37,004 nucleotides of DNA from a virus, in the IMG/VR virus record IMGVR_UViG_3300036792_000242, positions 1-37,004 of that record; one strand, written 5' to 3'. The position numbers were made by a program, and so were the translations under genes. This document shows, piece after piece, positions 1,540 to 17,223 of this stretch. The notes under the pieces were generated by a model. It did not search any database. It was not told the DNA's origin and was given only the letters and a program-made list of their open reading frames with translations. Within the stretch, counting starts at the first letter, position 1; the number at the start of each line of letters is the position of its first letter.

Positions 1540-2630
1540 TGCTGATCGTGATCGAGGGACCCGACCTCGGCGGCAAGACCACCCTCGCGGCGAACCTGGC
1601 CCGACGCTGGCACCGTCCCACGCTGCGTAGCCTGTCCCGGCCGCCGGCACCGACGGTGCTCACCGTCAAGAAGGGCCAGCCGGTCCCGGGCGTGGGGCCG
1701 TTCGAGGAGTATGAGCTCGCCCTGGACGAGGACAAGCTCGGTGAGGCCATCCGCAGCCGCCACGACCTCGTCCTGGCCGACCGCTGGCACACGGGAGAGG
1801 GCGTCTACGGGCCCCTTCTCCGCGGCCGGTCCCGTCTCACCGAGGCCGGCCTGACCCACGTGGAGCTCGCTCTCGACGCGCTCGGTGCGGTCAAGGTCGC
1901 GTGCCTGCCCCCGCTCGACGTCCTCCGTGACCGTCACACGACCCGCGGCGACGACCTGGTCACCGCCGACCAGCTCGAGCTGATCCGCGGCTGGTACGAC
2001 CTGGTCACGCGGCGGTACGGCTACGAGGTTCTCAACGGCACGGAGCCGGCGCACCTGGTTCCCATGCTGCTGGTCAACCGCGCCCGGACCCGTCGGGAGT
2101 GGGCCTACCACGCGCAGCGCCTCAGCGCCGGCACGTACCTCGGTAACCCCGTCCTGCCCCGCGCCATCCTCTGCGGGGACGTCCGCAACCCACGGGGTGA
2201 CGCGCGGTTCCGCCGTCCGTTCACGCCGCTCACCGCCGCCGGCAGCCCCACCTGGCTGCTCAACGCGTTGGTATTCAGCGGCTACCACAACGACGTTGGC
2301 CTGATCAACACCGCGGAACCCGGCGTAGACCTGCCGCAGCTCTGGCGCGCGCTGGGTCGGCCACGGCTGGTGGCCCTGGGACGGCTCGCCGAGGCTCGAC
2401 TGACCAGGCTCGACCTGAACCACGTCGCGGTGCCTCACCCGCAGCACGCGAAGAGGTTCCGGTACCACGACCTCGACGGCTACGTCGCCCAGCTCAAGGA
2501 GGCCATCCACCCGTGGAGCTCGACCACAGCAGTGGCTCACACGTCTACCTCAACCTCCTTCGAGACGCTCTCGACCACGGCGCGCTGGTCAGCCCCCGCG
2601 GCCAGCGAACCCGGGAGCTCCGCCACGTAA
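1539..2630 (+). CDS. dNMP/thymidylate-kinase-like protein with C-terminal glycosylase-like domain
   Basis: Residues 1-175 form a P-loop nucleotide kinase of the thymidylate kinase type: Walker A EGPDLGGKTT at 6-15, the DRW substrate loop at 81-83, and an Arg-rich lid near 130-140. Residues about 208-322 form a second domain (LCGDVRNPRG, then PF...S..WLLNAL, a central VALG and a late VPHPQHAKRF). Its pattern resembles the uracil-DNA-glycosylase superfamily, but the classical catalytic motif is not obvious. Inference: the kinase would phosphorylate the modified dNMP made by the downstream enzyme, as T4 gp1 does for hydroxymethyl-dCMP. The role of the second domain is unknown. The last 39 residues (from 325) are a Ser/Thr-rich tail that overlaps the next gene in another frame by 118 nt. 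Confidence 0.78.
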   Translation: MLIVIEGPDLGGKTTLAANLARRWHRPTLRSLSRPPAPTVLTVKKGQPVPGVGPFEEYELALDEDKLGEAIRSRHDLVLADRWHTGEGVYGPLLRGRSRLTEAGLTHVELALDALGAVKVACLPPLDVLRDRHTTRGDDLVTADQLELIRGWYDLVTRRYGYEVLNGTEPAHLVPMLLVNRARTRREWAYHAQRLSAGTYLGNPVLPRAILCGDVRNPRGDARFRRPFTPLTAAGSPTWLLNALVFSGYHNDVGLINTAEPGVDLPQLWRALGRPRLVALGRLAEARLTRLDLNHVAVPHPQHAKRFRYHDLDGYVAQLKEAIHPWSSTTAVAHTSTSTSFETLSTTARWSAPAASEPGSSAT

Positions 2631-3805
2631 CGGTACGGATCAACGACCCCAGCCAGGTGCACGTCCTGCGAACCAGGCGCCGGCCCAACGTGCGGATCGC
2701 CGCGGTGGAGGGCCTGCAGCTCCTGGCGGGGATCAGCAACCTGGACCAGCTGAACGCGGTGAGCGGCGGCCGGTTCAGCGCGTTCGCCGACCACGGTGAG
2801 CTGCGTGGGGCCTACGGCCCGCGGCTACACGGCCAGCTCGGCCACGTCGTGCGGCTCCTGGAACGTGACCCCGCCACGCGCCAGGCCCTCGCCACGGTCT
2901 GGCGGGGCGACGAGCACGCCGTGACGAGCCGGGACGTGCCCTGCACCACGACGCTGCAGTTTCTGCTCCGTGACGGCCAGCTCGAGCTGCGCGTCACGAT
3001 GCGGTCCAACGACCTGTGGCTCGGCGTGCCCTACGACTGGATGATGTTCAGCCTGCTGCACCGCGCGGTCGCGGAGGCCCTGGACGTGCCGGCGGGAGCG
3101 TACGTTCACAGCGTGGGGTCCATGCACCTCTACGAGAGCAACCTGGACCAGGCGAGGCAGGTCATCGAGGCGGGGCTGCTCACCGACCCGCTCCGCTTCC
3201 CGCCGGTGCCGCCCGACGTCGGCGTCAGCGACGCGTTCACGGACCTGCGTACCACCGCGCTGAGCATCCTTCTGCGCCGACCGGGTGACCGGCTGACGCT
3301 GCCGGTCACCGACGAACGCTCAATGTGGTGGTATGACCACGTGCCAGCGGTGCCGCCTACCACGCGCCTGTGCCTGGCCTGCCGCTACGTCTACGACGAG
3401 GCGACCACCTACCACCGGTGCCGTAACCTGACCGAGCGGCTGCCTGACCGGCTGAGGGTCGCGACCGATGACCTGCTTATCGAGTACCGCCGGGCCCGCG
3501 CCAAGCACGGCGCGTACTCGCTCGACGGGAGCGAGATCAACGACCGACAGCGAATCGCCGCCCTGGTGGAGGAGGTCGGGGAGGTCGCGCGGCTCCTGAC
3601 CTACGACCACGACGGGCCCGACAGTGAGACCGAGCTGTACCGTGAGCTGATCCAGGTCGCGAACGTCGCCGTGACCTGGGCCACGGTGGTTCACCGTGGC
3701 TACCGCGCGCCGACCAACGAGGAAGACAAGGAGAACGAGGTTGAAGCGTCTGTGGAACCGGTTGATCCAGCTCGTGAACGCGCCGGTGATCTGGCTGCTG
3801 GTTAG
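2513..3805 (+). CDS. dCMP-specific thymidylate-synthase-family enzyme (probable dCMP hydroxymethylase) fused to a MazG-like domain
   Basis: Residues 1-270 are thymidylate-synthase fold: PRG near 28, the YGPR segment at 101, catalytic Cys144 in DVPCTTTLQF, the RSNDLWLG phosphate/fold motif at 164-171, and HLY at 205-207. Asp175 in VPYD replaces the Asn that binds dUMP in thymidylate synthase. Asp there is the known signature of dCMP hydroxymethylases such as T4 gp42. A short zinc-ribbon-like stretch (C287, C290, H301, C303) links to a MazG-type all-alpha pyrophosphohydrolase at about 315-395 (EEVGE at 353-357, ELIQ at 378-381, with Gln where Asp is usual). Inference: one polypeptide could convert dCTP to dCMP and then to 5-hydroxymethyl-dCMP; dCMP methylation is the alternative. 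The GTG start has AAGGAGG 10 nt upstream and preserves the conserved N-terminus. Confidence 0.82.
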   Translation: MELDHSSGSHVYLNLLRDALDHGALVSPRGQRTRELRHVTVRINDPSQVHVLRTRRRPNVRIAAVEGLQLLAGISNLDQLNAVSGGRFSAFADHGELRGAYGPRLHGQLGHVVRLLERDPATRQALATVWRGDEHAVTSRDVPCTTTLQFLLRDGQLELRVTMRSNDLWLGVPYDWMMFSLLHRAVAEALDVPAGAYVHSVGSMHLYESNLDQARQVIEAGLLTDPLRFPPVPPDVGVSDAFTDLRTTALSILLRRPGDRLTLPVTDERSMWWYDHVPAVPPTTRLCLACRYVYDEATTYHRCRNLTERLPDRLRVATDDLLIEYRRARAKHGAYSLDGSEINDRQRIAALVEEVGEVARLLTYDHDGPDSETELYRELIQVANVAVTWATVVHRGYRAPTNEEDKENEVEASVEPVDPARERAGDLAAG

Positions 3806-3941: not shown

Positions 3942-4171
3942 GAACGAGGGTCAGCGTCTGGCTGCTGCGGTTGATGATCTGGGTTCTGCCGTGGCAAGAT
4001 AAACACCCGGTCCAGGACGCGGACCTGAACGTGACGCAGCTGCCCGACGGCTGGCACGTGTGGGGTACCATCGCCACCCTGGATGGCACGTCGTACGTGG
4101 TTGACCTCAGCGGCGCCAACCCCGCGGTCGTGGGTCAGGCGCTGGTTGAGCTGGTGGAGGCGATCACGTGA
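3938..4171 (+). CDS. small hypothetical protein with N-terminal hydrophobic helix
   Basis: A 77-residue protein. Residues 5-18 (VSVWLLRLMIWVLP) could be a short membrane anchor. The remainder looks like a small alpha/beta domain. Both ends overlap neighbours: its ATG lies in the stop of the gene before, and its TGA overlaps the GTG of the deaminase gene. It therefore sits inside the nucleotide-metabolism operon, but its function is unknown. Confidence 0.65.
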   Translation: MRTRVSVWLLRLMIWVLPWQDKHPVQDADLNVTQLPDGWHVWGTIATLDGTSYVVDLSGANPAVVGQALVELVEAIT

Positions 4172-4674
4172 CCCTGACCCTGACCGACGTTCCCGAGCCA
4201 CCGCCCCGCGCCACGTGGGACCAGACCTGGCTCGCCGTCGCGACGGTGGTCGCGCAGCGAAGCTGGTGCTCCCGCCGTCAGGTGGGAGCGGTGATCGTGA
4301 CCCGGGACAACCGCGTCGCCAGCGTCAGCTACAACGGGCCACCGCGGGGCCAGCACGTGACCACGACGTGTGACCACTGGTGCCGTCGCGCCATCGACCG
4401 TGACCTGCAGGCGTACGACAACTGCGACGCCATCCACGCCGAGGCGAACGCGCTCCTGCGAGCCGACTACACGGACATCGCGGGTGGCACGGTCTACGTG
4501 TCGAGCGCGATGTGCGTCAACTGCGCCAAGCTTGTCGCCAACTCGGGCCTGGTACGAGCGGTTCACGTGGTGGATGAGGAACGAGACGCGCACCGTCGGC
4601 CCGACGACGTGGAGCTGCAGCTCCGGCAGTGGGGCCTGTCCGTTCAACGAGCGAGGAACCTGGGTGACGGCTGA
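4168..4674 (+). CDS. deoxycytidylate (dCMP) deaminase
   Basis: A 168-residue zinc-dependent deaminase. The zinc site is clear: HAEAN at 90-94 (His ligand and Glu proton shuttle) and SSAMCVNC with Cys116 and Cys119. The N-terminal VGAVIV..DNRV....YNGPP stretch is typical of dCMP deaminases. It would make dUMP from dCMP to feed host thymidylate synthesis, and it competes with the dCMP-modifying enzyme for substrate, as the corresponding T4 pair does. The GTG start overlaps the stop of the gene before. The gene ends just inside the polymerase gene. Confidence 0.88.
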   Translation: MTLTLTDVPEPPPRATWDQTWLAVATVVAQRSWCSRRQVGAVIVTRDNRVASVSYNGPPRGQHVTTTCDHWCRRAIDRDLQAYDNCDAIHAEANALLRADYTDIAGGTVYVSSAMCVNCAKLVANSGLVRAVHVVDEERDAHRRPDDVELQLRQWGLSVQRARNLGDG

Positions 4675-6517
4675 GGTAGCGACCCGCCGACCGGCGGAGG
4701 TCCGGGAGTCCCCGCTCCAGGGGATCTCACTGCGGCTGGTGGAGTCCCTGGCCGACGCGAACGAGATGGCTCGCTGGCTCGGTGAGCGCCGTGACGTCCT
4801 GGCGTACGACACCGAGTCCGGTGGCCTGAACGCGAAGAAGGACCCGCTGCGACTGGTGCAGCTCGGTGACGAGCGCACCGGCTGGGCGGTTCCCTGGCCG
4901 CTCTGGGGCGGCCTCGTCGTGGAGCTGCTGACCCGGTACGAGGGTGACAAGGTCGCGCACCACAAGAAGTTCGACGACGGGTTCCTGCACGTTCACGCCG
5001 GGCTGCCGATCCCCGCGCTCGGTGACGACACCATGATCCAGCTCGCCCTGGCGGACCCTACCTACCCCAAGGGCCTGAAGCCGGCCAGCGCGCGGCTGAT
5101 CGACCCCCGGGCGACCGCGGGCGAGAAGCTGCTGCACGACGGCATGCGGGACCACGGCTGGACGTGGGCCACGGTGCCGTACACCTTCCCACCGTACTGG
5201 GTGTACGCCGCCCTGGACCCGGTGCTGACCGCGCACCTGCATCGGCTGAAGCGAGCCGAGGTGCGTGCTCGCTGCGAGGACCTGTACCAGCTCGAGCTGG
5301 CGGTGTCGCGGATCTGCGGGCGTATGTCTCTCGCCGGCGTCCTCATCGATCGGCCCTACGTCACGAACGCCCTCGAGAAGCTGAGAGGCTACACCGGGCG
5401 CGTCCGGTCCTGGCTCAGCGACGTGTACGGGGTGACCAGCCTGGCCTCCGGCAGGCAGCTCTACCAGGCGTTCCTCCAAGCTGGGTACGCGATCACCGAC
5501 ACGACGCCGACGGGCATGCCCAAGGTGGACAAGGACACCCTGGCGGGGATCGCCGCGGCGGGGTTCGAGGCCGACGCGGCGGCCACCCTCGGTGACGGCG
5601 CCGCGCCGCCGGCCGCGGCCCGGCTCGCGAAGCTGGTGATCGACGGCCGCCACGCCGACAAAGTGATCAACGGCTACCTGGAGAACTTCCTGGAACTCGT
5701 CGACGCCGACGACGTCATCCACGCCGGGATCAACACCATCCAGGCCCGGACCGGGCGCATGTCCGTGACCGAGCCGGCGCTGCAGACGCTGCACCGGGAC
5801 GACAAGATCGTGCGGGGCTGCTTCATCCCCCGTCCCGGCCACGTGTTTGTCACCGTGGACTTCAGCCAGGTGGAGATGCGTCTGGCCGCCGCGCTGAGCG
5901 AGGATCCCGGCCTGATCCAGGCCTTCTACGAGGCCGACAACGGGGGTCGGGACTTCTACTCCGGGATCGCGAGCGAGCTCTTCGGGGTTGACGTGCCCAA
6001 GAGCGACCCGCGCCGGCAGGCGGTCAAGACCATGTCCTACGCCAAGCTGTACGGCGCCGGCGTGCCCACCATGGCTCGGTCCATCGGCCTGCCGCAGGCC
6101 CGGGTCCGGGTCATCCACGACGCCTTCAACGAGCGGTTCCCCGGCCTGGAGCGCATGGCCAGGGAGCTGAGCAACCGGGCGTACGCGATGAAGCGGGCCG
6201 GTGAGCGACCCGCCACGTTCACGACCATGAACCGGTACCTGCCCTGTGACCCCGGCCGTGAGTTCGCGCTCATGAACTACAAGCTGCAGGCCGAGGCCGC
6301 GGACGCGTTGAAACGTGCCATCGTGAGCGCCGCCAACGCGGGGCTCGAGGATGAGCTGCGGCTGCCGGTGCACGACGAGCTGATCGCGGAGGTCGAGGAA
6401 CGCGACGCCGAGGAGGCGTTGCGGACCATGATCGCCGCCATGACGGACCGCGACAGCTACGCGGTGCCGCTCACCTGTGACGGCAAGATCCTGCGGGAAC
6501 GGTGGGTCAAGAGCTGA
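4664..6517 (+). CDS. DNA polymerase I family replicative polymerase
   Basis: A 617-residue family A polymerase with an N-terminal 3'-5' exonuclease. Exonuclease motifs: DTE at 49-51, HHKKFD at 99-104 (His where Asn is common) and YAALD at 181-185. Polymerase motif A is DFSQVEMR from Asp399, motif B is RRQAVKTMSYAKLYG with Lys455, and motif C is HDE at 570-572. Tyr459 sits at the O-helix position that is Phe in E. coli Pol I and Tyr in T7 polymerase, where Tyr goes with weak discrimination against dideoxynucleotides. No 5' nuclease domain is present. GTG 4664 is chosen because GCGAGGAACC precedes it; an upstream frame extension to 4370 overlaps the deaminase and lacks support. Confidence 0.93.
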   Translation: MTAEVATRRPAEVRESPLQGISLRLVESLADANEMARWLGERRDVLAYDTESGGLNAKKDPLRLVQLGDERTGWAVPWPLWGGLVVELLTRYEGDKVAHHKKFDDGFLHVHAGLPIPALGDDTMIQLALADPTYPKGLKPASARLIDPRATAGEKLLHDGMRDHGWTWATVPYTFPPYWVYAALDPVLTAHLHRLKRAEVRARCEDLYQLELAVSRICGRMSLAGVLIDRPYVTNALEKLRGYTGRVRSWLSDVYGVTSLASGRQLYQAFLQAGYAITDTTPTGMPKVDKDTLAGIAAAGFEADAAATLGDGAAPPAAARLAKLVIDGRHADKVINGYLENFLELVDADDVIHAGINTIQARTGRMSVTEPALQTLHRDDKIVRGCFIPRPGHVFVTVDFSQVEMRLAAALSEDPGLIQAFYEADNGGRDFYSGIASELFGVDVPKSDPRRQAVKTMSYAKLYGAGVPTMARSIGLPQARVRVIHDAFNERFPGLERMARELSNRAYAMKRAGERPATFTTMNRYLPCDPGREFALMNYKLQAEAADALKRAIVSAANAGLEDELRLPVHDELIAEVEERDAEEALRTMIAAMTDRDSYAVPLTCDGKILRERWVKS

Positions 6518-6568: not shown

Positions 6569-7177
6569 TTGAGTCGCAAGGACACGGGGAAGGCAGCTAT
6601 CGCCGACCTTCGCCAGGCGATGTACGCGTACCACCCCGGGGCACCGGACGTCACGCTGTGGGTGGACCCCGGCGAGAGCACCGGCTGGGCGGCCTGGCTG
6701 GACCCTCCCACGCTGGCGGATGAGGGTGCGATGCTGCGGTACTTCCAGGTTCTCGGGTTCACCGAGCCGCCCCGGTTCTTCGGTGGCCAGGCGCCGTGGC
6801 GCGTCGTGTGTGAGGACCTCTACGCCCTGACCTGTCAGTTCGGTAGCTTCCTCAGCCTCGGCTGGGAGGACTACCTCCTGCTCCCTGGCAGCCGCCACCA
6901 CGATCCCAGCGCCCTGAAGGTGATCGGCTTCCTGGAGTGGTTGACCAGCCGCGGCGGTGAGAGCAGCCGCCCTCACACCCTGGTTCCTCAGCCCAGCTCG
7001 AACCGCCTCCTCGGTGCCAGCAAGCTGACCATGCTGGGCTGGTTCAGGCCGGGGGAACGGGACAGCAACAGCGCCGCGGCCCACCTGCTGAGCCACCTGC
7101 TGAGCCAGAACCGCCTGCCTGCCGAGCTGCTGGCGCGGGTGCTCCCCGGCGAGGAGGCGTCGAGTGGCGGTTGCTGA
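6569..7177 (+). CDS. RuvC-like Holliday junction resolvase
   Basis: A 202-residue protein with an RNase H-like fold of the RuvC type: WVDPGESTGWA with Asp33, a second strand ending in CEDLYAL with an acidic residue, and a C-terminal helix motif ERDSNSAAAHLLSH carrying the last acidic residue. Phage members cut branched DNA during replication and packaging. It starts at TTG 6569, preceded by GAGGAG about 9 nt upstream. It overlaps the helicase start by 14 nt, which supports a recombination and replication operon. Confidence 0.75.
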   Translation: MSRKDTGKAAIADLRQAMYAYHPGAPDVTLWVDPGESTGWAAWLDPPTLADEGAMLRYFQVLGFTEPPRFFGGQAPWRVVCEDLYALTCQFGSFLSLGWEDYLLLPGSRHHDPSALKVIGFLEWLTSRGGESSRPHTLVPQPSSNRLLGASKLTMLGWFRPGERDSNSAAAHLLSHLLSQNRLPAELLARVLPGEEASSGGC

Positions 7178-9422
7178 GATCCGTGAGAAACGCGGTGAGC
7201 GGATCTTCGTCGCCACGAGCCCCGTGGAGAAGGACCAGATCACGCAGGTTCCCGGCGCGAGCTGGGACCGGCGAGCCAACGGCTGGTGGGTACCGCTGAC
7301 CTGGGCGGCGTGCCTGCAGCTCCGCGGCGTGTTCGGCCAGCGCCTCGTGCTGGGTGACGCGCTGAGGGAGTGGGCGTGGCGGGAGCGAGAGGATGAGATC
7401 CAACCGGCGTTGACGCTGCGTGAGGCGCTGGACCTCGACCCAAGCCACGAGGTCACGAAGGTGCTCGACGTCATCGAGACCGGTGAGCTAAGGTTGAAGC
7501 CGTTCCAGCGGGCCGCCGTCGCGTTCCTGGTTCTCCTGGAAAAGGCGTGCTGCTTTGAGGCCATGGGTAGCGGCAAGACGGTCATCAACATCCGCACCCT
7601 ACAGGTGCTGGCGGAGCTGGGCCGGGAACCGTATCCCGCTCTCATCGTCTGCCCCAGCAGCCTCAAGCACACGGTCTGGGCACGTGAGATCGCCAGGTGG
7701 GCGCCCGAGCTAAATGTCATCGTGATCGATGGGAGTGCGTCATCGAGACGGAAGAGCCTCAGCCTAGCAGCCGAGTACATTGGCGGCAAAAGGCACCTCC
7801 CGCATTGTGTCACCCAGACCAACCAACCGAGGCTCGACGAATGTGTCGATCATGCTACACCACATGGCATCGAGAAAACATCCGCACACCAGAGTGGGAA
7901 CAGCACAAACGAGAATACCTCGATCGTTGGTGGAAAGGGCAGTCTCCCGAAGAAGTCGATCGACGTAAGCGACGTGGCAAAGAACTCTATGTCTTCAAAA
8001 AATTTGGCATCTCACTCGATGACTATCACGCCTGGTTCGAACGAGCCAGCTACCGATGTGAGCTCTGCCCCGAAACCGCTCTTGTCCTCGATCACAACCA
8101 CTCCACCGGCCGCATCCGAGGCGTTCTCTGCTTCAAGTGCAACGCTTCAATCGCCAGAGCTGACCAAGACATCGAATGGCTCGACCGTGCCAAGCTGTAC
8201 GTGCAGCGAGGTAGTTCTGATCTGTAATTGGGAGACGCTGCGCATGCACTCCCGCCTGGCTCCCTACGGTTCCGCGCACCTGACCGACGCTCAGCGTGAG
8301 CCCAAGGAGCTGAACGAGCTGCCGCTGCGCACGATCATCCTGGATGAGGCACATCGCCTCTGCAACGTAGGACAGAAGACTGAACGTCAGGATGATGGCA
8401 GCACGATGACGCTGCCGTCCAGCCAGCAGGCGCTCGCGGCCTGGGCGGTGACGCACCAGGCCCACTACCGGTTCGCGCTCACCGGCACGCCCACCGACAA
8501 CCACGTGGGCGACCTGTGGGGCATCCTGCACGCGGTCCGACCCGACTGGTTCCCCGCGAAGACCCGGTTCCTGGATCGGTACGCGCAGACCAGCTACGGG
8601 TTGTTTGGGGGGATGGAGGTGATCGGGCTGCGGCCGGACACCGAGGCTGAGTTCCGCGCCGTGACCCAGCCGATGTACCGCCGTATCCCGCAGGAGGTGC
8701 TGCTGCCGCAGCTGCCCGCGTTCCGGGAGCCACAGCTGCGGGACGTGGCACTGACCCCCAAGCAGCTCGCCGCGTACCGTCAGATGGAGGAGACGATGCT
8801 GGCGCAGCTGAACGAGCTCCTGGTCGCCCGTGGCCCGGGGGTGCAGTTCGCGCGCCTGATGCAGTTCGCGGCGGCGAGCGTGGAGGTCACCGGTCGGGAC
8901 GAGGAGGGGCACCCGTTGACGCGGCTCATCGCTCCCTCCGCGAAGGTGGATGACCTGGTGGAGCTGCTTCGGGAGCTGGGTGACGAGCCGCTCGTGGTGG
9001 GCGCCGAGTCACGACAGCTGATCGAGCTGGCCGCGGCTCGCCTGGAGAAGGAGAAGGTCAGCCACTCCCTGGTGACCGGCTCGGTGGCACCGGTGGACCG
9101 GGCGCACGCGGTGCGACGGTTCCAGGACGGCCAGGTGCGGGTGATCCTGCTGACGTTCGGCGCCGGCGCGGAGGGGATCACCCTGACCCGGGCACGTTAC
9201 CTCTGCTACCTGCAGCGGTCCTGGCGGCCCCGGTTCAACGACCAGTTCCGCAAACGGGTTCAGCGGATCGGTGCCGAGGACCACGCCTGGCTGCAGGAGA
9301 TCGAGATCCGCGCCGTGGGGACCGTGGAGGAGCGCCGGGAGGCGGTTCTCGCGGGCAAGGAGGAGCGCATCGAGGAGGTCCTACGGGACCGCGACACGCT
9401 ACGGAGGCTGCTCGGTGGCTGA
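7164..9422 (+). CDS. SNF2-family DNA helicase/translocase interrupted by an HNH gene
   Basis: A superfamily 2 helicase of 752 residues: an N-terminal accessory domain, motif I MGSGKT at 134-139, DEAH at 394-397, the GTPT motif near 436, and a C-terminal helicase half with LTFGAGAEGITLT and RVQRIG. Residues about 195-347 do not look like helicase. They are a Ser/Thr/Pro/Asn-rich stretch read from DNA of lower GC that encodes an HNH endonuclease in the -1 frame. Without it the protein would be about 600 residues, normal for this type. The frame stays open across the insert, so either a helicase with a long disordered loop is made or the gene is impaired. The insert lies between motifs Ia and II, after GSASSRRK and before VVLICNWETLR. 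Confidence 0.85.
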   Translation: MAVAEIREKRGERIFVATSPVEKDQITQVPGASWDRRANGWWVPLTWAACLQLRGVFGQRLVLGDALREWAWREREDEIQPALTLREALDLDPSHEVTKVLDVIETGELRLKPFQRAAVAFLVLLEKACCFEAMGSGKTVINIRTLQVLAELGREPYPALIVCPSSLKHTVWAREIARWAPELNVIVIDGSASSRRKSLSLAAEYIGGKRHLPHCVTQTNQPRLDECVDHATPHGIEKTSAHQSGNSTNENTSIVGGKGSLPKKSIDVSDVAKNSMSSKNLASHSMTITPGSNEPATDVSSAPKPLLSSITTTPPAASEAFSASSATLQSPELTKTSNGSTVPSCTCSEVVLICNWETLRMHSRLAPYGSAHLTDAQREPKELNELPLRTIILDEAHRLCNVGQKTERQDDGSTMTLPSSQQALAAWAVTHQAHYRFALTGTPTDNHVGDLWGILHAVRPDWFPAKTRFLDRYAQTSYGLFGGMEVIGLRPDTEAEFRAVTQPMYRRIPQEVLLPQLPAFREPQLRDVALTPKQLAAYRQMEETMLAQLNELLVARGPGVQFARLMQFAAASVEVTGRDEEGHPLTRLIAPSAKVDDLVELLRELGDEPLVVGAESRQLIELAAARLEKEKVSHSLVTGSVAPVDRAHAVRRFQDGQVRVILLTFGAGAEGITLTRARYLCYLQRSWRPRFNDQFRKRVQRIGAEDHAWLQEIEIRAVGTVEERREAVLAGKEERIEEVLRDRDTLRRLLGG
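7697..8227 (+). CDS. HNH endonuclease (endonuclease VII type), nested in helicase gene
   Basis: Up to 176 residues in the -1 frame relative to the helicase. Zinc and catalytic motifs: C38 then CRSCY at 50-54, CELC at 121-124, LDHNHSTGRIRG from 131, and CFKCN at 145-149. This is the endonuclease VII pattern (DH.H.tG..RG.lC..CN) seen in phage homing nucleases. GTG 7697 lies in normal helicase sequence; TTG 7805 is the only later in-frame start that keeps C38, and neither has a strong ribosome binding site. GC content and codon use differ sharply from the neighbours, with many A/T-ending codons. The stop lies about 20 nt into recognisable helicase sequence. It is probably a selfish homing nuclease gene. 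Confidence 0.8.
   Translation: MGARAKCHRDRWECVIETEEPQPSSRVHWRQKAPPALCHPDQPTEARRMCRSCYTTWHRENIRTPEWEQHKREYLDRWWKGQSPEEVDRRKRRGKELYVFKKFGISLDDYHAWFERASYRCELCPETALVLDHNHSTGRIRGVLCFKCNASIARADQDIEWLDRAKLYVQRGSSDL
7745..8205 (+). mobile_element. approximate extent of HNH insertion in the helicase gene
   Basis: Boundaries are estimated from where helicase-like protein sequence stops (after GSASSRRK) and resumes (VVLICNWETLR), and from the drop in GC. At about 460 nt it is nearly filled by the HNH reading frame, leaving no room for a group I intron core. The ends carry no intein splice residues. The inserted length keeps the helicase in frame. Confidence 0.55.
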
Positions 9423-12466: not shown

Positions 12467-13494
12467 TGCGTGTCCTGGCAACGGGTGTCACGAAGCAGCA
12501 GTGCGGCGGTGGCACCTCGGTCGACTACGAGCCCGTCGCCGCGCTGCTGGTGAAGGCACTCCGCGCGGCGGGCCACGGCGTGGATCACCGCGTCGTGGGC
12601 GCCGCCGAGCGCCTCGACGGCTACGACGCGGTGCTGGTGGGGCTCGTGCCGTTCTTCTCCATCGCGAGCCATCACCTGTACCCCGCCCTGCACGTGCTGA
12701 GCGAGGCCAGGCGCACCGGGCGGCCGATCGTCCTGTACGTCGACGACTGGGGCTTCAGCCAGCTGATCGCGAACCTGGGAACCCACCTCCGACAGCCGCA
12801 CCAGCTGACGAAGGAGTTCTTCAAGGGTCGCCTCAACCGGGACTGGGCACTCAGCCACGAGGCCGAGCTGATGGAGGTCGTGCGCTGGCTCGGGGAGGAC
12901 CCCTGGCCACCGCTCCTGGTTCCCACGTTCCGCTGGGGCAACCACGAGAAGCTCGGCAACCTGCTGCCCAACGCTCACGACGTCACCTACGTCGACCCCT
13001 CGAGGTTCGCACGCTCCTACGACGTGGTGGCTACCGCCGTCGAGGAGCGGGACCGGCAGTGGGTGCTCGGCACGGTGTCGAACCAGCTGGAGTGGGTCGA
13101 GTCACTGAACCTGGCCTGGCCTCTCAACCACCTCGGTACCCGCACCAGCCGGGCGCCGCGGAAGATGCCGGAGAGGGACCTGGTGCAGCTGTACGCCGAC
13201 AGCTGGGGCGTGCTGTCACCACCGTACCGGAAGATCCTCGGCACGGGCTGGTGGCGGAACCGCTTCGTGTACGCCGCTCGGACCCGTTCGGTGCTGCTCT
13301 GCGACCCCGGTGAGGCGGCTCAGCTCGGTGAGCCGTACCTCCTGACGCCCGACGTGGTGGAGAAGCAGCCGACCACGGCTCTCCGTGACCTGGCTCACGC
13401 TCAGGCCGCTGCCCTGGAGGGAGCCATGGGCTCAGCTGCCGCGGCGTGCGCTCAGATCAACGACGCGTTTCAACGAGCGAGGGAGCTGACGTGA
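12466..13494 (+). CDS. GT-B-type glycosyltransferase, possible DNA base glycosyltransferase
   Basis: A 342-residue protein with a two-domain GT-B look. The N-terminal Rossmann-like part runs from MRVLATGV through YDAVLVGLVPFFSI and RPIVLYVDDW. The C-terminal half has YADSWGVLSPPYRKI, GWWRNRFVYAARTRSVLLCDP and EPYLL, the region that binds nucleotide sugar in this fold. The order of features resembles T4 beta-glucosyltransferase, which glycosylates hydroxymethylcytosine in DNA. Its position among replication genes, not beside surface genes, and the dCMP-modifying enzyme upstream fit a DNA substrate. Target and sugar are inferred, not shown. A protein or capsid target is the alternative. Confidence 0.62.
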   Translation: MRVLATGVTKQQCGGGTSVDYEPVAALLVKALRAAGHGVDHRVVGAAERLDGYDAVLVGLVPFFSIASHHLYPALHVLSEARRTGRPIVLYVDDWGFSQLIANLGTHLRQPHQLTKEFFKGRLNRDWALSHEAELMEVVRWLGEDPWPPLLVPTFRWGNHEKLGNLLPNAHDVTYVDPSRFARSYDVVATAVEERDRQWVLGTVSNQLEWVESLNLAWPLNHLGTRTSRAPRKMPERDLVQLYADSWGVLSPPYRKILGTGWWRNRFVYAARTRSVLLCDPGEAAQLGEPYLLTPDVVEKQPTTALRDLAHAQAAALEGAMGSAAAACAQINDAFQRARELT

Positions 13495-13925
13495 CCGATC
13501 ACCTGGACGCGATCTTCCAGCGGCAGTACGCCATGCAGCGGCGCTACGGCTACGACCTGGTAGCTCTGACACCGGCCGAGCGCGTGACCTACCTGAAAGA
13601 CAACAACCAGGCCGCGATCGCTGAGCTGGTGGAGGCGCTGCAAGAGATCAGCTGGAAGCCGTGGGCCACAGGTGAACCATGGATCAACCGGGAGGCGCTG
13701 GTCCGTGAGCTCGTCGACGTCCTCTGCTTCCTGGTCAACCAGTTCCTCGCGCTGGGAGCGACCCCCTCTACCGTGGACCGCTTCCACGCGGCGAAGGTAG
13801 AGGTGAACGAGCGGCGACGCCTTGACGGGTACACCGGTCGGGACAAGTGCCCCAGCTGCGGGCGCGCGCCCGACGAGCCAGGAGCGGACGAGGCTCAGCC
13901 AGACGCGGTACTGTCTGATACGTGA
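13491..13925 (+). CDS. all-alpha NTP pyrophosphatase, dimeric dUTPase/dCTPase-like
   Basis: A 144-residue protein starting at GTG 13491, overlapping the glycosyltransferase stop (GTGA) and preceded by ACGAGCGAGGGAG. The core ELVEALQEISWKPW...ELVDVLCFLVNQ is the metal-binding pattern (E..E, then E..D) of dimeric dUTPases and related dCTPases, with the characteristic WKPW. A C-terminal CPSCG is a single pair of Cys. It would hydrolyse dUTP or dCTP to the monophosphate. In a cytosine-modifying phage the T4 gp56 role, removal of unmodified dCTP, is a natural reading, but substrate choice cannot be read from the sequence. Confidence 0.75.
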   Translation: MTDHLDAIFQRQYAMQRRYGYDLVALTPAERVTYLKDNNQAAIAELVEALQEISWKPWATGEPWINREALVRELVDVLCFLVNQFLALGATPSTVDRFHAAKVEVNERRRLDGYTGRDKCPSCGRAPDEPGADEAQPDAVLSDT

Positions 13926-15178
13926 CGTACTCGGTCGCGGATTGCCAGGGTTTCGCCGGCGGCATGACCGTCGGCGCGACCCTGGCCGGGTACCGCCTGG
14001 TGGGGAAGCTTGAGCAGGTTGGTGGCTTCGGGGTCCTCGCCTTTGAGGCGAACCGCGCCTTCCTCGGTGACCACTGGGAGGCGCAGGTCGGGGACCCCGC
14101 CACCTGGCGAGCCGTGCCCGCGGACGTCGTCGTCGGCACCCCGCCGTGCGCCGCGTTCAGCGGCATGAGCGTGGGAACCACGCAGCACGGCATAGGGTCG
14201 GCGATCAACGACTGCATGCGTGAGCTGTTCCGGTACGCGGCGAGGGTCACGCCGCTCGCGGTGGTCATGGAGAGCGTCGGCCAGGCGTACAGCCGTGGGC
14301 TGCCGCTGATGCGGGAGCTCGTCACGGACCTGAACGACACGACCGGCCTGCGCTACGCGGCCACGCACGTGCTGCAGAACAACCTCACGCTGGGTGGCTG
14401 CACCCGCCGGCGACGCTACTTCCTCGTGGCCAGCCGGCTGCCGTTCGGGGTGGATCCCCCGCCGTACCGGCCGGCCACGATCGCCGACGCGTTGGCCGAC
14501 CTACGTGACCTGCCGTTGGGCTGGGAGAACCAGCCCTACCGTGATCCACCCACGTGGTGGTCCGTTAGGCTGCGGCGGCTGGACGGCTTGGTGGACGGCC
14601 ACGTGCCGCCCGGGTCCCCGTTCAGTCGCCGTATCCACGACCTCGTTGACCCGCCACGTGGCGTGGCCTGGTACCCGGGTGAGGGTGAGACCGACATCCT
14701 GCGGCGGTACCACACCACGTACGGTGAGCTGCCGCCTTCCTGGTGCTACACGACGCCGCGGTCGAAGTTCGGCCTGGCTCACCTTACCCGCGACAAGCAG
14801 CTGCTCGAACGTGACTTCGACGCCGGTGGCTTCTCGAAGCCGCGTTACTGGCCGTGGGACGCCCCGGGACGCGTGCTCAACGGGGCGGGCCCGTTCCAGG
14901 TCTGGCACCCCAATGGTCGGTTCATCACGCACCGTGAGGCGGCTCGGATCATGGGCTTCCCCGACGCGTGGCGGGTCGAGCCGTTGCGTGACGTGCGAAA
15001 CCTGCACGCGTTCTGGGGAAAGGGCACGTCGGTGCATCCCGCTCGCTGGGTCATGGCCTGGCTGAAGCGGTCCCTCGACGGGCGACCGGGTGCGGATCTG
15101 GGGGTGCCCCTGGACGCGGGTGACCGTCTGATCGACGTGTCGCGACTTCCCCGGTTTGAGGCACGTCCCGCTGCGTGA
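13922..15178 (+). CDS. C5-cytosine DNA methyltransferase
   Basis: A 418-residue protein of the Dcm/C5-MTase family. Motif I is CQGFAGGMTVGATLAGY, motif IV is GTPPCAAFSG with catalytic Cys76, motif VI is MESV at 116-119 (ESV instead of the usual ENV), motif VIII is TRRRRYFLVA near 161-170, and the late REAARIMGFPDAW motif is well conserved. It transfers methyl from S-adenosylmethionine to C5 of cytosine in a DNA recognition site. No restriction enzyme is adjacent, so it is an orphan enzyme that may protect phage DNA. If cytosines are already modified at C5 its target is unclear. The GTG overlaps the previous stop. Confidence 0.85.
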   Translation: MTYSVADCQGFAGGMTVGATLAGYRLVGKLEQVGGFGVLAFEANRAFLGDHWEAQVGDPATWRAVPADVVVGTPPCAAFSGMSVGTTQHGIGSAINDCMRELFRYAARVTPLAVVMESVGQAYSRGLPLMRELVTDLNDTTGLRYAATHVLQNNLTLGGCTRRRRYFLVASRLPFGVDPPPYRPATIADALADLRDLPLGWENQPYRDPPTWWSVRLRRLDGLVDGHVPPGSPFSRRIHDLVDPPRGVAWYPGEGETDILRRYHTTYGELPPSWCYTTPRSKFGLAHLTRDKQLLERDFDAGGFSKPRYWPWDAPGRVLNGAGPFQVWHPNGRFITHREAARIMGFPDAWRVEPLRDVRNLHAFWGKGTSVHPARWVMAWLKRSLDGRPGADLGVPLDAGDRLIDVSRLPRFEARPAA

Positions 15179-16658: not shown

Positions 16659-16895
16659 ATGACCGTCTACCGACACGCGACCCGTGAGCAGGTTGAGCTG
16701 ATCGCACAGCTCGCACACGAACGCTACATCGCCGACCCGGTCAACCGTGCCAGGCTTCAGGAGCTGGTGCGGTCGCACCTCGCCGGCGCCTACCGCTTCA
16801 CGCCCGGTGAGGCGGACGCCACCGTCGCCTGGCTGCTGCGGCGCCCGGCGCGACGCGGTGTTCCCCAGCGAACCATGCTGGCTCCCGCGGCGTGA
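16659..16895 (+). CDS. small hypothetical helical protein
   Basis: A 78-residue basic protein starting at an ATG with GAGAGGA upstream, directly after a promoter. Predicted helices include REQVELIAQLAHERYIADP and RARLQELVRSHLAGAY, with an Arg-rich end. No family is recognised. Together with the WhiB gene it forms a two-gene unit under its own promoter, so a regulatory role is possible but unproven. Confidence 0.62.
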   Translation: MTVYRHATREQVELIAQLAHERYIADPVNRARLQELVRSHLAGAYRFTPGEADATVAWLLRRPARRGVPQRTMLAPAA

Positions 16896-16935
16896 CATAA
16901 AGATGACAACGAGAAGCGTTAGGGAGGTGCCACCG

Positions 16936-17223
16936 ATGACGAACCTCGACCCGGATACCCGCACCAAGACCGACTGGCGGCACCGCGCCGCCTGCCGTGA
17001 CGAGGACCCCGAGCTGTTCTTCCCCGTGGGAACCACGGGTCCCGCCCTGGTACAGACCGCCGAGGCCAAGAAGGTCTGCCACCGCTGCCCAGTAGCGGCC
17101 ACCTGCCTCGCGTGGGCCCTGGCCAACGGCCAGGACGCGGGCGTGTGGGGCGGCCTGAGCGAGGATGAGCGTCGGGCACTGAAACGCCGGCGCAAGTATG
17201 AGCTCAGCAAGGCTCGTCGCTAG
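16936..17223 (+). CDS. WhiB-family transcriptional regulator
   Basis: A 95-residue protein with the four cysteines of the WhiB Fe-S cluster: one in RAACRDEDPELFF, CHRC, and the last in TCLAWAL. The GVWGGLSEDERR turn and a basic C-terminal helix are also present. WhiB proteins occur in actinobacteria and their phages and act on transcription through the primary sigma factor. This is the best single clue to the host group. ATG 16936 has AGGGAGGTG 6 nt upstream. The gene is the last one rightwards before the convergent terminator. Confidence 0.92.
   Translation: MTNLDPDTRTKTDWRHRAACRDEDPELFFPVGTTGPALVQTAEAKKVCHRCPVAATCLAWALANGQDAGVWGGLSEDERRALKRRRKYELSKARR

Follow-up and report, generated by a model that had tools for sequence, protein, structure and literature searches.

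The viral DNA analysed here, a stretch of 37,004 nucleotides that we call the window, encodes a pyrimidine hydroxymethylase of the thymidylate synthase (TS) fold fused to a MazG-like domain. We read this protein, with a probability of about 0.78, as a dCMP hydroxymethylase that carries the fused domain as its accessory and belongs to a cassette for precursors of 5-hydroxymethylcytosine (5hmC). The features at the locus are listed below.

1539-2630, +: P-loop nucleotide kinase-like protein with an extra C-terminal domain, a candidate 5-hydroxymethyl-dCMP kinase (phrog_761, thymidylate kinase, E 3.2e-10)
2513-3805, +: fused open reading frame (ORF) of 430 aa with a GTG start, comprising the pyrimidine hydroxymethylase (TS fold), a Cys-rich tail and the MazG-like domain
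2513-3322, +: TS/pyrimidine-hydroxymethylase domain, about residues 1-270 (PF00303 at residues 11-219; alignment)
2933-2947, +: active-site stretch D141-V-P-C144-T145, with Cys144 as the nucleophile (alignment)
3035-3037, +: codon of Asp175, the base-specificity position (ThyA N177, T4 D179; alignment)
3371-3421, +: Cys-rich tail, C287-x2-C290...H301-x-C303 (comparison with unfused relatives)
3446-3697, +: MazG-like all-alpha domain of NTP-pyrophosphohydrolase type, residues about 312-395 (phrog_2831, homologues, AF2 and VIA)
4168-4674, +: dCMP deaminase (PF00383, E 4.3e-15; phrog_174)
4370-6517, +: family A DNA polymerase (PolA), with its true start probably near 4670 (PF00476, E 2e-50)

The fused ORF runs through 430 codons in one frame without a stop. 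GC3 was about 0.9 up to residue ~387 and 0.58 over the last 43 codons; the value near 0.9 across the MazG part indicates that this part is coding and in frame. The open frame, the GC3 values and the profile matches bear out the original prediction that a TS homologue, a Cys-rich segment and a MazG-like domain share one polypeptide. A full-length AF2 model (pLDDT 85.6) had the CMP hydroxymethylase MilA as its best PDB match (E 2.6e-19) and contained a low-confidence stretch ahead of the MazG-like domain.

The TS domain matched PF00303 (E 3.5e-25, residues 11-219) and PHROG 5131 (E 1.5e-38), and its closest solved relative in sequence was again MilA (E 1.9e-27). We aligned the fused ORF with E. 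coli ThyA, T4 gp42, SPO1 gp29, MilA and twelve other phage enzymes using MAFFT. The PF00303 match and the equivalents of Cys146, Arg166, His207 and Tyr209 place the domain in the TS/pyrimidine hydroxymethylase superfamily; Glu66, Tyr101, Cys144, Arg164, Ser165, Asp175, His205 and Tyr207 all fall on T4/ThyA active-site positions. Cys144 aligned to the nucleophile (C146 in ThyA, C148 in T4 gp42), and Asp175 to ThyA N177 and T4 gp42 D179, the base-binding position to which it had been assigned from the sequence alone. Asp141 occupies the position of T4 Asp145, which is required for full activity (PMC6400193), and Thr145 that of ThyA His147. The protein shares with T4 gp42 the Cys nucleophile, the Asp at the base position (177 in ThyA), the Asp three positions ahead of this Cys (D141), the Thr after it (T145) and the Met-Arg-Ser-Asn-Asp motif. 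By contrast, T4 gp42 has 246 aa, with neither a Cys tail nor a MazG domain, and gp56 is a separate gene. The two also differ at the second phosphate-site Arg (ThyA R127), which is Gln124 in the fused ORF and counts against a T4-type dCMP hydroxymethylase; Gln is usual here for the group (111 out of 120 TS clusters).

The original prediction described Asp175 as a switch to dCMP as substrate. dCMP is indeed the likely substrate, but the "switch" is the norm: Asp stood at position 177 in 118 of the 120 TS clusters (defined at 90% identity), a set whose search patterns and ranking favoured Asp-bearing enzymes. Moreover, the Asn/Asp rule at this position is already established (PMC8670742, PMC5175136, PMC6400193), and MetaGPA found Asp177 in the TS of modified contigs and also singled out position 147 (PMC8670742). 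That position was Thr in 117 out of 120 clusters, as in the fused ORF.

Asp177 alone is insufficient for assigning the chemistry, because it is also found in the AXL1 and PaMx28 enzymes (AXL1 gp63 and PaMx28 ThyA of Pamexvirus/Bosavirus), which are likely dCMP methylases of the Xp12 clade; hydroxymethylation therefore needs residues beyond this one. Methylation oxidises folate and needs dihydrofolate reductase (DHFR), and hydroxymethylation does not. In Xp12, a relative of AXL1 and PaMx28, 5-methylcytosine (5mC) replaces all cytosine in the DNA (PMC7653180, PMC9206674), and a dCMP methylase making 5-methyl-dCMP in the same manner would fit the shared Asp177. We consider this improbable for the TS domain. 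An adjoining deaminase is common to the window, AXL1 and PaMx28, and AXL1 also has an adjoining NTP-pyrophosphohydrolase (NTP-PPase). AXL1 and PaMx28 keep Asn143, Pro147, Leu/Ile165 and Trp80 and have a DHFR gene beside the deaminase, a pattern drawn from two relatives only, whereas Asp141, Thr145 and Met163 of the fused ORF are identical in T4 gp42 and AXL3. Phe88 replaces Trp80, although T4 gp42 keeps Trp at this position; AXL3 has Ile. A DHFR profile matched AXL1 and found nothing in the window, six related viral contigs, DSL-LC01 or AXL3. At 37 kb, compared with 95-147 kb for its relatives, the contig may lack genes, and the missing DHFR in the window alone says little. Taking Asp141, Thr145 and Met163 together with the lack of a phage DHFR, we group the enzyme with the T4 gp42-type dCMP hydroxymethylases, an assignment that we regard as very likely. 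Positions 143, 147 and 165, besides 177, offer a testable sequence rule for separating phage dCMP hydroxymethylases from dCMP methylases. Action on CMP, as in MilA, or on dUMP would suit the position of MilA (5jnh, 5b6d) as the nearest solved protein by both sequence and fold, with the same Asp and the same D..CT motif, but it is highly improbable. MilA carries Lys133 and Ala176, the ribose-type pocket residues of MilA/BcmA, whereas the fused ORF has Arg123 and Ser165, of the deoxyribose type (PMC5175136), so that deoxyribose is favoured over ribose; Asp175 disfavours dUMP.

The genes around the fused ORF belong to a common cassette of kinase, hydroxymethylase, NTP-pyrophosphatase, dCMP deaminase and PolA, which MetaGPA has already tied to modified cytosine through the co-occurrence of TS, PRA-PH and dCMP deaminase on contigs with modified cytosine (PMC8670742). 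The order in the window is kinase-like gene, fused ORF, dCMP deaminase, PolA and further replication genes. The kinase-like gene holds the same place in relatives, and kinase, TS, deaminase and polymerase follow the same order in DSL-LC01 and in Phendrix, a phage of Gordonia. The cassettes of AXL3, PW916 and three Manatee Spring phages also include an NTP-pyrophosphohydrolase as a separate gene. Such a separate gene lay within the fetched locus for 38 out of 120 TS clusters, on the same strand in 48 out of 48 cases. AXL3 matches the window in both active-site residues (Asp/Thr/Met) and cassette, and its DNA was cut by only 2 out of 37 enzymes, both with A/T-only sites (PMC7504290). AXL3, ct3Et533, ctIqW946, DSL-LC01 and the MetaGPA contigs have an overlapping set of NTP-PPase, kinase, hydroxymethylase and dCMP deaminase, with the order shared in several, but any nearby NTP-PPase in them is a separate gene of PRA-PH or dUTPase_2 type. 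The kinase-like ORF shares the 118 bp at its 3' end (2513-2630, +) with the fused ORF, compared with an overlap of 17 bp in the related contig L016, which suggests that the kinase gene in the window lost an earlier stop. Residues about 190-320 of the kinase-like protein form a conserved C-terminal domain (HPQxAKRF, DGYVAxLKEA) common to L016 and three further viral contigs (L017, L019 and L144).

Among 176 TS-homologue loci, we found the TS and a MazG-like domain in one frame only in the window, of which L001 is a copy. Searches with the MazG part yielded no other TS-MazG fusion, no record in the phage collection covered 80% of the fused ORF, no close relatives by whole protein were found in IMG/VR, and a scan of genome contigs yielded no relative. 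The open-access literature searched held no earlier description of the three-part fusion. The fusion is thus real and looks new within these collections and this literature, in agreement with the initial suspicion that it was undescribed. In the nearest viral contigs (L016, L017, L019, L021 and L144; about 50% identity), the protein consists of the TS and the Cys tail and then ends. In L144, the MazG orthologue is an ORF of its own, 109 aa long and about 1 kb downstream (RELIQVANVALTWA in L144 against RELIQVANVAVTWA in the fused domain). The simplest history is that intervening DNA was lost and a free neighbouring gene was joined to the hydroxymethylase. The tail reads CxxCRYV...CxxC in unfused relatives and C287-x2-C290...H301-x-C303 in the fused ORF, and may bind metal, judging from these motifs. 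We rejected the idea that the tail arrived with the fusion, as unfused hydroxymethylase relatives have it; the "zinc-knuckle linker" first proposed does contain a Cys/His motif, but it belongs to the hydroxymethylase subfamily and was not made for the fusion.

By sequence, the MazG-like domain is less firmly assigned than the TS domain. It had no match in Pfam or NCBIfam and matched phrog_2831, a PHROG of unknown function (E 4.4e-7). VEEVGEVA and ELIQ are common to 30+ viral homologues, and VEEVGEVA and the Glu of ELIQ are kept by all MazG-like relatives, an invariance partly built in because VEEVGEVA was one search pattern. The key residues are E353/E354/E357, E378 and Q381; the four Glu are invariant across the subfamily, free-standing proteins included. 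Against the ExxE...ExxD metal motif, E354xxE357 matches and E378xxQ381 departs, with Gln at the fourth ligand position. Gln381 in place of the Asp usual for the family had been pointed out before; the substitution is confirmed, but Gln is the usual residue in the domain's own subfamily, with Asp or His in a few members. For this reason, we set aside the view that Gln381 is an inactivating change. The AF2 model of the domain (pLDDT 86) best matched 2p06 (archaeal AF_0060; Z 10.7, 83 out of 84 residues), followed by human DCTPP1 (Z 7.3), with two-helix ribosomal chains close behind and mouse dCTPase also present; for helical-bundle models, Z scores under about 13 can arise by chance. We detected no significant link when the MazG part was compared by hhalign with PRA-PH-type and gp56-type NTP-PPase sets. 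The domain resembles the phrog_2831/Q-type MazG-like proteins, DCTPP1 and AF_0060 in its VEEVGEVA and ELIQ motifs and four-helix model; it differs from the all-alpha NTP-PPases (DCTPP1, AF_0060) in having Gln, not Asp, as fourth ligand and in lacking a Pfam match. We regard the evidence for a MazG-like NTP-PPase fold, which comes from modelling, as moderate. We know of no solved structure or assay for phrog_2831 or Q-type MazG-like proteins.

Two further genes on the contig bear on the role of the fused domain.

13446-13925, +: free-standing dUTPase_2 protein of the T4 gp56 dCTPase/dUTPase family (PF08761, 26.0 bits, cut-off 22.9)
13922-15178, +: C5-cytosine methyltransferase homologue with altered cofactor motifs (PF00145, E 2.1e-11)

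The first protein aligned with T4 gp56, which likewise passes the dUTPase_2 cut-off, along its full length, has a complete ExxE...ExxD motif and has homologues in seven related genomes. By its sequence, it is a better candidate for the dCTPase/dUTPase than the fused domain, which need not be a dCTPase when a complete gp56-type gene is on the contig. The proposal that the fused domain supplies dCMP from dCTP is weakened by this separate gene and its conservation in relatives.

The role of the fused domain admits several readings. It might be a dCTP pyrophosphatase in a bifunctional enzyme, converting dCTP to dCMP and handing this to the hydroxymethylase. NTP-PPases are common neighbours in such cassettes, including those of MetaGPA; DCTPP1 was the second-best solved match, with mouse dCTPase listed too; and in T4, gp42 works together with gp56 in a single precursor complex. 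We nevertheless find this bifunctional role doubtful, given the complete gp56-type gene in the window and in seven relatives, the Gln at the fourth metal-ligand position and the presence of the MazG subfamily in many phages without a TS gene in the fetched flank. The specific claim that the Q-type domain splits dCTP, or a dNTP related to it, and that dCMP passes straight to the hydroxymethylase seems rather unlikely; if true, pool cleansing and base-modification synthesis would be genetically fused, with the T4 gp56-gp42 pair united in a new form in one polypeptide. It is possible, though less likely than not, that the domain is a catalytically weak or dead module for dimerisation or docking, for example to the polymerase or the gp56-like protein. 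The Gln at the ligand position, the low-confidence stretch ahead of the domain and the free dCTPase-type gene elsewhere on the contig would all suit this, but the invariant E353/E354/E357 and E378 suggest selection for metal binding, and Gln, being usual in the subfamily, does not imply loss of activity.

In our preferred reading of a dCMP hydroxymethylase with an accessory domain, the enzyme would convert dCMP and methylene-tetrahydrofolate to 5-hydroxymethyl-dCMP without oxidising the folate. The adjoining P-loop kinase would phosphorylate this product, the host would carry it on to the triphosphate, and PolA of the phage would put 5hmC into DNA. The gp56-like protein would clear dCTP and dUTP and yield dCMP, part of which the dCMP deaminase would divert to dUMP. 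The MazG-like domain would be a lineage-specific accessory, either a dNTP pyrophosphohydrolase near the hydroxymethylase or a docking module. Should the fused protein function as one unit, it would provide direct genetic evidence, outside T4, of a coupling between dCTP removal and dCMP hydroxymethylation, and channelling could be tested with a single protein.

In the window, the divergent C5-methyltransferase homologue and the end of the gp56-like gene overlap; in seven relatives (including L227-L232), it lies within about 2 kb of the gp56-like homologue. It retains the catalytic motifs PPC, Glu and RxR, but has DCQGFAGG as motif I and GKGTSV in place of GNSV in motif X, where the alignment is ambiguous. 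With these altered motifs, it may use an unusual cofactor or substrate, for which CmoX offers a comparison (PMC12783734); no CmoA for a CmoX-like route was found. The conservation of this homologue counts against our preferred reading, because it would serve little purpose in DNA in which 5hmC had already replaced all cytosine. A GT1-type glycosyltransferase (PF00534), possibly a later modifier of 5hmC, occurs in three relatives (L223, L224 and G008:C1:52960-53388) and was not found in the window or the contig of L019. Neither the window nor the relatives contain a carbamoyltransferase (PF02543) as a next modifier.

The SNF2-type helicase gene (7164-9422, +) contains an insert with an endonuclease VII ORF in another frame (7697-8227; PF02945, E 3.9e-15). 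A search for Rfam introns in this gene was negative, and the insert looks like a mobile insertion. A WhiB-type regulator at 16747-17223 (+; PF02467, E 1.2e-27) points to an actinobacterial host. The contig thus probably comes from a phage of actinobacteria, and phages probably infecting this group join those likely to carry 5hmC.
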